Source of the DNA: a virus
Virus record (IMG/VR): IMGVR_UViG_3300049216_000317
Location: 1-20,960 of that record
Reading direction: 5' to 3' (one strand)
DNA: 20,960 nt
The notes below the pieces were generated by a model, which saw nothing but the letters and a program-made list of their open reading frames with translations, searched no databases and was not told the origin of the DNA. This document shows positions 3,289 to 20,401 of this stretch, one piece after another (position 1 is the stretch's first letter; each line of letters starts with the position of its first letter). The position numbers and the translations under genes were made by a program.

Positions 3289-4155
3289 ATGGAATTCAAA
3301 AGCTTTTCTAAGATCGAATCTCTTCGCAATGTGCGCATGCAAATCACGCAAAAGATCCACGGCACCAACGCGCAAATCATGATCGTCCCACGCGACGGTG
3401 AGGGCGATTACCTCGATATAGTTCGCGTGGACGACAAAGAATACTATGTTCGCGCTGGATCGCGCACTCGCTGGATCACGCCGGGTGACGACAATTATGG
3501 TTTCGCTGCCTTTGTCCATTCCAATGCTGAAGCGATTGTTCGCAGTTTAGGTCCTGGCCAACATTTCGGGGAGTGGGCGGGTCTTGGAATCAATTCCGGC
3601 GAAGGGCTAACTTCAAAAGTGTTTTGCCTGTTCGATTACTGGCGTTACGACAAAGAACTGCCGCCTCAATGCGTGCTAGTGCCTGTGCTTTACGAAGGGC
3701 CTTTCTCGCTGGAGAAGATTAACGAGGTCATGGCAGAATTGAAGACCGGGGGGTCGAAATTATCGCCCGGATTTATGCGTCCCGAGGGAATAGTGATTTC
3801 TTTCATGGGCAAGCGGATCAAGAAAGTTTTCGAAGCCGAAGAATCTGCATGGAAGGGCGGTGATCCGATGGCTCGTGCGCTCAAAGATAAGATGCGCATG
3901 GAAGATAAGAGCTTTGAATTAGTTGAACATCTCTTGCAGCCGGTACGTTTGGAGAAGCTATTGTCGCGCGACGAACGTTATTTAATCAGCTACCCGAAGT
4001 CTTTGCCCATGATCTGCAAAGACTACACTCAAGATCTTTTGGATGAAGGACAGATCACTGGTGATGAGAGTCAGGTTTCTTCAATGAAGAAGATTCTTGG
4101 GAAACATTTGTTTCCTTTCGTGAAGGCGGAAGTGAATCGTCTTTCCGGTATCTAA
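3289..4155 (+). CDS. RNA ligase (Rnl2/PF09414-like nucleotidyltransferase)
   Basis: A 288-residue ATP-dependent RNA ligase. The motifs are in order: motif I KIHGTN with nucleophile Lys22; a SRTRW segment near 58-62; motif III GEWAG at 94-98; motif IIIa VFCLFDYW at 111-118; motif IV PEGIVI at 165-170; motif V KRIKKVF at 175-181. Residues about 190-288 form an extra C-terminal domain. Enzymes of this type join RNA ends through a ligase-AMP and an RNA-adenylate intermediate. In phages they repair host-cleaved tRNAs, usually with a polynucleotide kinase/phosphatase, which is not seen here. The ribosome site AAGGA lies 6 bases before the ATG. The last 100 bases are overlapped by a leftward frame. 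Confidence 0.88.
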   Translation: MEFKSFSKIESLRNVRMQITQKIHGTNAQIMIVPRDGEGDYLDIVRVDDKEYYVRAGSRTRWITPGDDNYGFAAFVHSNAEAIVRSLGPGQHFGEWAGLGINSGEGLTSKVFCLFDYWRYDKELPPQCVLVPVLYEGPFSLEKINEVMAELKTGGSKLSPGFMRPEGIVISFMGKRIKKVFEAEESAWKGGDPMARALKDKMRMEDKSFELVEHLLQPVRLEKLLSRDERYLISYPKSLPMICKDYTQDLLDEGQITGDESQVSSMKKILGKHLFPFVKAEVNRLSGI

Positions 4156-6526: not shown

Positions 6527-7015
6527 TCAGCCCTTCTTGATTTCTTCTTCTTTTTCTTTTTGACGACGGGCTAGAGCTTCTTCAGCGGCCTTTTTAGCGC
6601 GCTCCACGGCCTCTATACGACGTTGCTCAAGAACCTTCTTGTACTTGAGTTCAGATTGAATTGCGGCCTCTAAAACCTGGGCTACGATGTTGTCATCCTC
6701 AATGTCTCCTGCAAAACCAGAAGTGGTTGAGTTCCAAAAAGGGGGGGCCTCAATAATTCGCTGTTTAAGTTGAGTTAAGCAGTAAGTCACAAAAGTGATG
6801 TGCTCATCCGCCATGGTGATGTTCTGACCTAAAAGTTCACGATATTCGCGATTGGCTGCAATCTGTTGCAAAGGAGTCAGGTAGCATCTGAACTTGAAGA
6901 GTCCAGTATAAAGGCCTTTGATCGGACCATGCTGCGAAATCATCCAAGTCGAAGTTCCATCAACGTTGATCGTGATGTCTGGACGTTCGTCTTCAATCTT
7001 TTTCTTTTTTGCCAC
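6527..7015 (-). CDS. Putative tail assembly chaperone
   Basis: A 162-residue protein starting at GTG with a strong ribosome site (AAGAGGT). The N-terminal segment carries strands around the GLYTGLFKFRCYLTPLQQ motif. Next is REYRELLG, then a helix ending in LTQLKQRIIEAPPFWN, and finally a long Ala/Glu/Lys helix with a charged tail (from about residue 120). From memory this matches phage proteins placed before the tape measure and annotated as tail assembly chaperones, which fold or spool the tape measure protein. No slippery heptamer for the usual frameshift is seen. Its leader carries the pentamer repeat at 7102-7166. Confidence 0.55.
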   Translation of the reverse strand: MAKKKKIEDERPDITINVDGTSTWMISQHGPIKGLYTGLFKFRCYLTPLQQIAANREYRELLGQNITMADEHITFVTYCLTQLKQRIIEAPPFWNSTTSGFAGDIEDDNIVAQVLEAAIQSELKYKKVLEQRRIEAVERAKKAAEEALARRQKEKEEEIKKG

Positions 7016-7101
7016 GCTTACCTCTTAAACTTCTATCACGTCGCTGAACTTTAGTTTTTGGTGCAAAGGGAAAATCAGGGATTGATCTATTTTTGACGCA
7101 G

Positions 7102-7166
7102 GACTGACATTCAATGTACTAGACTCAACTGTACTCTACTCTGATCGACTGAACTCGCTTCTACTG
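7102..7166 (-). repeat. Thirteen-unit degenerate pentamer repeat (NAGTN on the minus strand)
   Basis: Read on the minus strand from 7166, the sequence divides without any insertion or deletion into thirteen pentamers. Position 2 is A in all 13, position 3 is G in 9 and position 4 is T in 10. Examples are CAGTA, GAGTT, GAGTA, CAGTT, GAGTC and TAGTA. A -10 box at 7179-7174 places the transcript start at about 7167, so the array would form the very 5' end of the RNA. NAG triplets with 2-base spacers resemble targets of the ring-shaped TRAP RNA-binding protein, but only five of the triplets are GAG or TAG. Confidence 0.75.
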
Positions 7167-7173
7167 AAGCTAT

Positions 7174-7203
7174 ATCATATCTTTTTGATCGTAATTTTTG
7201 ATC
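7174..7203 (-). promoter_or_regulatory. Promoter of the chaperone operon with GATCAAAAA direct repeats
   Basis: On the minus strand, two copies of GATCAAAAA (7203-7195 and 7190-7182) spaced 13 bp apart lie upstream of TATGAT (7179-7174), which matches the -10 consensus at 5 of 6 positions. No recognisable -35 hexamer exists at the normal distance. The repeats may therefore be sites for an activator that replaces it, which would suit a late phage promoter. Confidence 0.45.
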
Positions 7204-7301
7204 TAAGAGCGAATTAGGCTTTTATTTCTTTGCTGAAATATAAAAATATGGCAAAACGCGATAGATTTCATCTATTTACAATTTTGCAAATTATTTTCAG
7301 A

Positions 7302-7682: not shown

Positions 7683-7760
7683 TGATCATCTCTAAATTCT
7701 TAGCCAGCTGCGTCTACAATTAAGATTGCCGGATAGCCCTGATTCCGCTGTTTTCCTCTA

Positions 7761-7769
7761 TGATATAAA
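7761..7769 (+). promoter_or_regulatory. Extended -10 promoter for the rightward gene at 7786
   Basis: TGATATAAA is followed by GGTTTTAGAGG. It is the same pattern as at 5764-5772 (TG-N-TATAAAGGT-Y-TTA). Seventeen bases upstream of each TATAAA lies a similar hexamer (GATTCC here, GATACC at 5764), which could be part of a phage-specific promoter. The predicted start is near 7776, in or just before the ribosome site, so the mRNA leader would be very short. Confidence 0.5.
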
Positions 7770-7785: not shown

Positions 7786-7980
7786 ATGAAAATCAGGGGC
7801 GCAATCTCTGCATTTCGAAAAAAGTTAAGTGAATTTGAAGCTTCGGTGCTTTGCAGGTCGGGGAGCGGAGAAATCCTATCCCCTTTGGACGCAGTCACGT
7901 TCTGCATTGTTTTTTACCACGTCAAACTCTCTGTTTGGCTCCAGAAGGCGCGCAAAAAGAGTTCAGGACCCGACGTTTAG
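7786..7980 (+). CDS. Small rightward protein inside the leftward lysis genes
   Basis: A 64-residue protein with ribosome site AGAGG 5 bases before ATG and an extended -10 promoter just upstream. It starts with a basic amphipathic segment (MKIRGAISAFRKKLSEFEAS), has a hydrophobic stretch (LDAVTFCIVFYHVKLSVWL, residues about 33-51) and ends with basic residues, so it may associate with membranes. It reads against the late genes, and its last 18 bases overlap the 3' end of the hydrolase gene. A regulator of lysis or an antisense function is conceivable; nothing in the sequence proves it. The family is not recognised. Confidence 0.5.
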   Translation: MKIRGAISAFRKKLSEFEASVLCRSGSGEILSPLDAVTFCIVFYHVKLSVWLQKARKKSSGPDV

Positions 7981-8484
7981 GTCTTTAGGCAGCTGCGATA
8001 CGATCGCCAGCATGTTCTTTGGCGTCGCATTGGCCAAGTCGAATAAAATGTTCTTTTGGCTTAAATCGTCCAGAGCCGCGGCCACAAAGACAGAGCATAC
8101 AAACCCGGTGTTATCGCTGAATGGATTGTTAATTGATACCCCGAAATAGGAAAGGATCTGGACGATAGCCAAGCCTAAAACTTCTTTTAAGCTATAAGCC
8201 TTCCCCATGTTGTCCATGACGAATTTCTTCATTTTTTCAAATGCCGCATCGGAAATCGTAAAATCATATTCGTGAATGACCTTTTCCTGCGAGAGAAAAA
8301 CCTGTTCAGTCATCAGGTTTACCAAATCATGACTTGCTTGGTAATAGACCCATTCCTGAATTTCATCATCGAAGGCTTTGATGTAGACGTGTGAAAAGTC
8401 CACGTTTTCTGCCGCCATGATGATCCAAGAGAAAATTGGTAAAGCCATTGTGGATCTGGAAAAGCCGACTACGATTTGTTTCAT
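7963..8484 (-). CDS. Permuted papain-like (NlpC/P60 superfamily, YiiX/YebB-type) hydrolase
   Basis: A 173-residue protein in which the catalytic order is permuted: His32 in FSHVYIK comes first and Cys130 in FVCSVFVAAAL comes last, with YYQASH (His52) between. This is the arrangement of YiiX-type amidases/peptidases related to NlpC/P60. The loop NPFSDNTGFVC before the Cys matches phage relatives that I remember. The likely role is cleavage of an amide bond in peptidoglycan or a lipid/peptide substrate, during lysis or by the virion. No signal peptide is present, so export would need the holin or the tail. The start overlaps the upstream gene as ATGA. Confidence 0.65.
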   Translation of the reverse strand: MKQIVVGFSRSTMALPIFSWIIMAAENVDFSHVYIKAFDDEIQEWVYYQASHDLVNLMTEQVFLSQEKVIHEYDFTISDAAFEKMKKFVMDNMGKAYSLKEVLGLAIVQILSYFGVSINNPFSDNTGFVCSVFVAAALDDLSQKNILFDLANATPKNMLAIVSQLPKDLNVGS

Positions 8485-13512: not shown

Positions 13513-14328
13513 TTAATCTTGATCTGGATCGGGATCTGAATCCGATTTTTTAATAGGAGCAAACCAACATAAAGGGCGGGAGCCTTCGGAATATGTCTTT
13601 TTGGTTGGATATTGGTAGCAGCTATTTACTTTCGGATTAGCATCTGACATCAAACCGATAGAGATCGGGCATGTCATAGCCGACATATAAGTATCAAACC
13701 GGCATTGTGCGGCAGGATGATCTTCATAGACTTTTTTAACGACGCTTTTGTCTTGGGTGGCAACAGAAGGATTTGCACTACCTTCCAACGAAGCAAGAGT
13801 ATTAGACAGAACCTGAATAGCTGCTGCTTGGTTTTGTGGATCAAGACGCTTCATGCAAATAAGTTCCGACCAATAATCGGCTTCTCCTTCTACGGCAGGT
13901 CCCCCGCCTCCCCATGCTGTTTGATCGGAGAATAAGGGCGCTCCTCCCATGTGATGACCAAGTTCATGGCAGGCAACGGCGAGGTAGCCTGACGGAGTCA
14001 TGCCTGCGTAACGTGCGAGTCCACCATAAGAATTGATGACCCAGTTTTTTCCTTCGGTATCTGTGTCCGAATTGACCGTATCATCTGACCAAAGACGGTT
14101 GATGACAAGATGATAGCCCATCGCTTCAACTTCGGGACCATACGCTTTAACAAGAATATCAAGCTCTGCATTGAACTGATCTTCGGAGATTCCCGTTGTG
14201 TCGGTCGACATAAGAACACGATTAAAAGAAGACTCGGATTGCTCAGGAAAGCAGGAAGCGTAGGTTTGAGTCGAGAAGGCGAAGCAAGAGAAAAGAAGAG
14301 CTAAAAGAAGAGCTAAAAGATATTTCAG
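13513..14328 (-). CDS. Secreted zinc metallopeptidase (HELGHH...EGEAD), probable CTG start
   Basis: A gluzincin-type peptidase with CHELGHHMGG as the zinc-binding helix and VEGEADYWSE carrying the third ligand, like the ExEAD motif of M48 peptidases. The first ATG is at 14211 (232 residues), but the frame stays open for 39 more codons that encode a signal peptide: KYLLALLLALLFSCFAFS, then TQTYA as a likely cleavage site. The only plausible start for it is CTG at 14328, 5 bases after GGGGG. The mature protein has several Cys (SCF, ICM, QCR, TCP, SCY, LCW) that could form disulfides in the periplasm. It ends in an Asp/Pro tail. This is unusual between tail genes; lysis, host damage or exclusion are possible roles. 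Confidence 0.65.
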   Translation of the reverse strand: MKYLLALLLALLFSCFAFSTQTYASCFPEQSESSFNRVLMSTDTTGISEDQFNAELDILVKAYGPEVEAMGYHLVINRLWSDDTVNSDTDTEGKNWVINSYGGLARYAGMTPSGYLAVACHELGHHMGGAPLFSDQTAWGGGGPAVEGEADYWSELICMKRLDPQNQAAAIQVLSNTLASLEGSANPSVATQDKSVVKKVYEDHPAAQCRFDTYMSAMTCPISIGLMSDANPKVNSCYQYPTKKTYSEGSRPLCWFAPIKKSDSDPDPDQD

Positions 14329-19589: not shown

Positions 19590-19600
19590 ATTAACCTATA

Positions 19601-20401
19601 TCATTCCCACTTCGTCCAAGACTCGATGTTCTTCAAAGCCTCTGGCAGGACCTGAGATTCCCAAATCGCCATGGCATGTTCTTTCGCGCGCTCAAAGAAG
19701 TTCTTGGCCTGAAGTCCAGGGTGAATCCATTTGCCTTGGCTTTTAGGTCCTGAAGTGACGGTGCGGAAGGTTTTTACCGAAAGGGTTCCGGTGCGCTGCC
19801 CTTTTTTGTTTTGGCCCGTTACGCGCTGAAAGGCGTTTACGTTTTGGCCGATTGGCGTGTTGCCACGCCCAGGGATTGGACCACCAAGATCTAGATCTTT
19901 GATGGTGCGGCCATGTTTTAGGTTTCCTGCGCCGTCAGTTGTTTTACCGAAAAGACTTGCGCCTTTACCAAACTTCTCTTTATAGCCCTTTTGAAGCTGT
20001 TCGCGCATGTTACTCATATTGACTGTACGATCCTGTGCTGGACCATTGTGTTCGAAGGGGATGATTCGATACCGAATGCCATTTTTCCCGACCTTGCCGT
20101 TTTTTAAAAGTCCCGGCTTCATGTCGAAATTTTCTGGCAAACCATCTTCAATAAAAATTGCCGATTGCTCTAAGGTGCAAACGAATACGCCGGGCGCGAT
20201 TTCTTTAAATGGAGTTAAAGCCTGCAAATAGGTATTACGAGTTGAGTGAAGTTCGTTTTGAACCATTTCAAGAAGGAAGGTGTAAGTTTGGTTCGCGAGA
20301 TTTCGAGCCGCTTCGTTAAGTTCTTGCTCAACCTCTTGCCGAAACAAATGAAAAGTCTCGGCAATTTCGTCCGTATTTAGTGAAAAATGAACGTTTGGCA
20401 T
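19601..20401 (-). CDS. Putative tail completion / head-tail joining protein (HK97 gp10-like)
   Basis: A 266-residue protein. It starts with a helical region (EIAETFHLFRQEVEQELNEA, then ARNLANQTYTFLLEMVQNEL), followed by beta strands. Near the end is KWIHPGLQAKNFFERAKEHA, which resembles the WxHPGxxxxxFF signature at the C-terminus of HK97 gp10-like tail completion proteins, and then a final helix. The middle (residues about 130-210) is Gly/Lys-rich and longer than usual for the family. The start lies 1 base after the stop of the preceding small gene; the ribosome site is GAAAGGG. These proteins join the finished tail to the head. Confidence 0.6.
   Translation of the reverse strand: MPNVHFSLNTDEIAETFHLFRQEVEQELNEAARNLANQTYTFLLEMVQNELHSTRNTYLQALTPFKEIAPGVFVCTLEQSAIFIEDGLPENFDMKPGLLKNGKVGKNGIRYRIIPFEHNGPAQDRTVNMSNMREQLQKGYKEKFGKGASLFGKTTDGAGNLKHGRTIKDLDLGGPIPGRGNTPIGQNVNAFQRVTGQNKKGQRTGTLSVKTFRTVTSGPKSQGKWIHPGLQAKNFFERAKEHAMAIWESQVLPEALKNIESWTKWE

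Follow-up and report, generated by a model that had tools for sequence, protein, structure and literature searches.

Which kind of element is the run of thirteen pentamers that precedes a tail-chaperone gene in this virus, and is it read as RNA, as DNA or not at all? The run lies at positions 7102-7166 of the window, by which we mean the whole stretch of 20,960 nucleotides that was analysed. The window belongs to a 164.5 kb virus contig with a distant relative in Myxococcus phage Mx1, whose sheath is 39% identical. The features discussed below are collected in Table 1.

Table 1. Leader features and downstream genes, in window coordinates.
Feature	Positions	Strand	Remarks
AT-rich stretch 5' of the box	7180..7300	minus	no sigma-70 -35 match
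P1, TATGATATA box, presumed phage promoter element	7171..7179	minus	ATGATA in all long leaders
Inverted repeat GCTTC-AGTA-GAAGC	7157..7170	minus	directly 3' of the box; 5' hairpin or start-site dyad
NAGTN array, 13 pentamers in one register	7102..7166	minus	strong core 7118-7155 (units 3-10)
CCCTTTG	7064..7070	minus	weak; roughly half the relatives have CCTTTGG/CCTTGG/CTTGG at similar positions
P2, degenerate second box GTGATAGA	7032..7039	minus	24 nt upstream of the start codon
g6527, tail assembly chaperone-like protein, 162 aa, GTG start	6527..7015	minus	homologs, predicted fold
g6062, second gene of the two-gene operon, 153 aa	6062..6523	minus	adjoins g6527 also in relatives

Read from 7166 to 7102 on the minus strand, the array consists of the pentamers CAGTA GAAGC GAGTT CAGTC GATCA GAGTA GAGTA CAGTT GAGTC TAGTA CATTG AATGT CAGTC, with A at the second position in 13/13, G at the third in 9/13 and T at the fourth in 10/13. 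The counts, the single register and the coordinates of the original prediction proved exact on recount, and the pentamer array is thus confirmed as a real observation. At the array, 29/60 positions match at lag 5 (window mean 14.8, sd 3.4), and the locus scores highest in the window at each of lags 5, 10 and 15. Nowhere else in the window, nor in the approximately 161 kb scanned of the record, does one base recur 13 times in succession at spacing 5. Moreover, the shuffling that had been proposed as a check for chance registers produced no 13-unit run of a single base, at any period from 4 to 9, in 100 dinucleotide shuffles of the window. A search across the record for other copies of AGTNNAGTNNAGTNNAGT with at most one mismatch found none. 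Units 3-10 are the strongest part and the robust core of the array, units 1-2 overlap the inverted repeat and units 11-13 are weak. Taken alone, the local periodicity score of the array is unusual, but not unique genome-wide.

The gene behind the leader had been called a chaperone, and modelling favours a tail assembly chaperone. Close homologs of g6527 show 40-54% identity, and an AlphaFold model built from 12 homologs (pLDDT 85) retrieved viral tail assembly chaperones from BFVD with Foldseek (S5M8F1, E 0.005, probability 1.00, and others), the predicted fold thus matching phage tail assembly chaperones; searches of g6527 against PDB, Pfam and PHROG gave no match. In the relative G004, g6527 and g6062 form an isolated two-gene operon with flanking genes on the other strand. 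In the window there is a convergent junction 3' of the pair, and several relatives have divergent genes on either side of the locus. Within g6527, CCCCCCCTTTTT (about 6733-6745, minus) looks slippery; programmed slippage was rejected since the site is not kept in the relatives, among which the codons vary. Elsewhere in the window, positions 3289-4155 (+) encode an RNA ligase (PHROG 548, E 1e-24) and positions 14291-14320 hold a perfect 12-bp tandem repeat, AAAAGAAGAGCT, in 2.5 copies.

The array was also said to stand directly behind a promoter-like box, and close relatives do keep this box ahead of the gene. All 15 long leaders that precede homologs of g6527 contain ATGATA, the box by which they were delimited, and 12/15 contain ATGATATA. 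The genome of the window holds 7 copies of ATGATATA versus 0 for the reversed control. The P1 box is a putative promoter, from which the tract would be transcribed, with a transcript start that is placed from the box alone. The 75 nt upstream of the box have a mean GC content of 24% over the 15 leaders (27% in the window) versus 39% in the tract, and no sigma-70-type site was found upstream of the g6527 leader in the window. The arrangement resembles the T4 late promoters (TATAAATA, gp55) in its short -10-like box without a -35 element and in the tandem placement before one gene, as in T4 gene e, which has two late promoters just ahead of its ribosome site (PMC3014915). It differs from them in that the phage box is ATGATATA, in that this box has only 7 genomic copies and in that no sigma-70 region 2 homolog was found in the six phages searched.

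Other boxes were noticed in the genome. The sole other exact TATGATATA is located at 7759-7767 (+), 18 nt ahead of a 64-aa ORF (7786-7980, +) which has no family match and whose end overlaps the end of the minus-strand gene 7963-8484. ATGATATA-like boxes with one mismatch to TATGATATA are present at 19597-19605 (-) and at G000:C1 54140, 94305, 106082 and 129575. Such boxes lie 5-8 nt ahead of gene starts, one of them ahead of a tRNA-like sequence, and they may be promoters of the P1 class whose leaders are very short. Upstream of the P1 box, CGCTCTTA appears at 7204-7211 (-); we take it to be the lambda nut boxA sequence, and its presence here is probably due to chance.

Immediately past the box, a perfect stem of at least 4 bp beginning within 0-3 nt is present in 9/15 leaders, compared with 12% of control positions (binomial p ~1e-5); an earlier, looser hairpin test had given a combined p of 1.7e-4. 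The stem sequences are unrelated among leaders (GCTTC, GCGTTT, ATACA, CTCAC, CTCC, CACG, GTTC and ACTC). In other systems, a hairpin at the 5' end hinders RppH and makes some messages more stable (PMC3997798). If transcription began at the usual distance from a -10 element, the start would fall inside the inverted repeat, and the hairpin would then not be an RNA structure. Closer to the gene, 9/15 leaders carry a second TGATA box, 93-142 nt past P1 and 16-44 nt ahead of the start codon, and in about half of the leaders a CCTTTGG-like motif sits between the two boxes. The second box near the start codon, this motif or both were seen in L214, L215, L216, L217, L218, L219, L247 and L248. The leader RNA folded no better than shuffles, and the folding z was about 0 in most leaders, that is, the tracts are not less structured than shuffled sequence; a reading of the tract as an unstructured spacer was dropped for this reason. 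An Rfam search of the window gave no match.

Whether the period belongs to the locus rather than to one phage was addressed with g6527 homologs, gathered by protein similarity only and blind to repeats, whose upstream DNA was then read. The sample comprises 15 long leaders behind an ATGATA box, the window included; a search of IMG/VR for strain-level relatives of the window found none. For the stretch 8-83 nt past the box, the best local score at lags 4 and 5 exceeds that of dinucleotide shuffles with a combined Fisher p of 2.7e-12, in a test that treats the phages as independent, the leaders being too diverged for alignment yet the phages related. Individually, 7/15 leaders reach p<0.05 in this segment and the remaining 8 are not significant. 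The same test yields p 0.2 in the 75 nt before the box and 0.85 in the stretch 83-158 nt after it. Since lags 4 and 5 had been picked after L214 and L218 were seen, all lags from 2 to 25 were checked with a plain identity count, and the excess is limited to 4, 5 and harmonics of 4 (lag 4, Stouffer z 5.2; lag 5, 5.0), with values around zero or negative at lags 2, 3, 6 and 7. The leaders also exceed 834 non-coding control segments of the same phages (Mann-Whitney p 1.7e-9, a conservative test as the controls contain the leaders of the window and L213). When 68 ATGATATA sites were ranked by periodicity, the top seven were all leaders of g6527 homologs, and the excess peaks in 40-nt segments that start 10-30 nt past the box. 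A chance alignment in one phage would agree with Tandem Repeats Finder, which makes no call on the array, and with three other genome places of comparable local score (the one read in context, G000:90876, is inside an ORF). However, chance is refuted by the relatives, with Stouffer z of 5.5 and 4.3 when the window is left out, and we consider it highly improbable.

The unit itself is not maintained. It is NAGTN in the window, NTT(C/A) with period 4 in L218 and NTGN with period 4 in L214; L247 carries the pentamers TAGTT CATTA CATTT CAGTT CATTT CAGAA TAGGA (NAKTN), and the units of L248 and L231, the latter with period 4, are pyrimidine-rich. The period is kept from phage to phage and the unit sequence is not. 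Hence, the expectation of a 5-nt period before the same gene in related phages held only in part: a 4-5-nt period recurs at the same place in the long leaders as a group, but the unit and even the period change. Loss of the period with promoter and gene retained, named in the original prediction as evidence against it, is not the rule among the long-leader relatives, which keep the period as a group, but four relatives (L043, L229, L230 and L232) have box and gene with a short leader and no array.

The internal structure of the arrays bears on whether selection or mutation maintains them. In the window, identity between units is 0.48, 0.53 and 0.58 at lags 5, 10 and 15, and from lag 5 to lag 25 it is flat or rising; it is also flat in L214 and L218 and falls only in L247. 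This speaks against a decaying microsatellite in the window, L214 and L218, where adjacent units are not more alike than distant ones. The positions of the unit are unequally conserved in the window (p 0.002; 0.03 when the ends are set by the periodicity score), in L218 (p 0.0006) and in L214 (p 0.048), but equally in L247. Uneven conservation and the lack of decay with distance fit spaced contacts better than a decaying microsatellite. Ordinary slippage is also disfavoured, since the signal is sharply localised and other lags are absent. That the phages have no unit in common, and that some tracts have period 4 and others period 5, speaks against a single conserved binding protein.

Our preferred explanation, put forward tentatively, sees in the array this phage's own form of a leader element of its lineage, read as RNA by some oligomeric RNA-binding protein. 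This element would stand at the very start of the P1 transcript, ahead of the isolated two-gene tail-chaperone operon, in the order ATGATATA box, small hairpin, about 60 nt of 4-/5-nt recurrence, often a second ATGATATA-like box, ribosome site and gene. The box recurs, a hairpin tends to follow it and the 4/5-nt period is localised; the tract may act as RNA, with evenly spaced contacts for an oligomeric protein. The reader would be a ring- or filament-forming RNA-binding protein, a candidate other than TRAP, whose base preference would evolve in step with the tract. By covering the long P1 leader, this protein could slow or reduce production of the chaperone or shield the message. P2, which is 3' of the tract, could give a short-leader message free of the control of this protein. 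A bolder version, which we consider unlikely, is a rhythm code in which only the contact spacing of 4 or 5 nt is selected while the contacted bases drift, a co-evolving phage oligomeric RNA-binding protein timing tail-chaperone synthesis. A leader read as RNA is preferred because the periodicity is confined to 8-83 nt past the box and to lags 4 and 5, and because of the hairpin in 9/15 leaders. There is a precedent in the T4 gene 32 leader, where gp32 binds cooperatively to a 5' pseudoknot followed by UUAA(A) repeats (PMC3014915). Both are phage leaders in which a 5' structure, repeats and the ribosome site follow one another, but the array is strictly 4-5-nt periodic, its tract is no less structured than shuffles and the gene is different. 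Against the RNA reading stand the lack of a common unit, the fact that a binder of fixed geometry should not permit both periods, the 8/15 leaders without individual significance, the even conservation of L247 and the finding of no ring-forming RNA-binding family in the phages searched.

The original prediction had compared the array with the target of TRAP (MtrB) in Bacillus trp leaders. The B. subtilis trp leader shares with it the 5-nt period, the NAG triplets and the position in a 5' leader, and TRAP binds 11 (G/U)AG repeats (PMC4027176). A TRAP site has spacers of 2-3 nt, giving a period of 5-6; the period is exactly 5 in the window and 4 in L214, L218 and L231. The comparison breaks down on the triplets, which are mostly not (G/U)AG, with only 5/13 being GAG/UAG in the window, and on the relatives, in which period and unit change and which have NTTM, NTGN or pyrimidine units; moreover, the gene is that of a phage tail chaperone. 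The search for a TRAP-like (mtrB) protein came back empty, with no TrpBP (PF02081) above cut-off in the genomes of the window phage and nine relatives (the B. subtilis control was positive and only phage genomes were covered). A TRAP target is accordingly scarcely credible. Hfq, CsrA and TROVE were likewise not found above cut-off in the window phage and seven relatives, apart from one sub-cut-off Hfq match, with a stop, in G004.

Two further rivals dispense with a protein that reads the RNA. In the main one, which we consider somewhat less likely than the RNA reading, there is no read-out. Duplications of 4-5 bases would arise again and again just past the start and then decay, through a mutational process linked to the strong P1 promoter (template slippage, R-loops or topoisomerase-linked short duplications). 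It would explain why the unit is different in every phage, as though regenerated many times, why L214 is a nearly perfect (TATG)n and why the fourth base of L218 shifts from C to A along the array, as expected from stepwise duplication; near-perfect pentamer repeats also exist in other viral contigs, where exact arrays are mostly simple microsatellites and are uninformative for the locus. However, slippage normally also gives lags 2, 3, 6 and 7, which show no signal, the flanking non-coding DNA and the other boxes show none either, and the window array pairs an invariant column with fully degenerate ones. The other rival, quite unlikely in our view, places the function in DNA, as iterons for a replication or packaging protein or as an R-loop origin made of the promoter and the downstream tract. 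DNA-binding subunits lined up on one face of the helix would need a longer pitch than 4-5 bp, which counts against it, as do the units, which are not conserved, and the GC content of the tract, which is not that of an AT-rich unwinding element. The location between divergent genes in several relatives speaks for it. The compositional skew shifts near the locus are explicable by gene-strand switches. Its model is T4, where oriF and oriG combine a promoter with a functionally needed A+T-rich downstream unwinding element without common sequence, and where oriE has 12-nt iterons whose role is unknown (PMC3016281). The phage locus shares with these origins a promoter with a sequence-variable downstream stretch, and repeats with oriE, but its tract is not AT-rich and its repeats measure 4-5 nt instead of 12.

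If the element is selected, it would be a regulatory element conserved in period and place and not in sequence, invisible to ordinary alignment, and it would point to a new oligomeric protein that binds nucleic acid, in a group of phages that has hardly been studied. If it is mutational, it marks a promoter-linked duplication process restricted to 4-5 bases.
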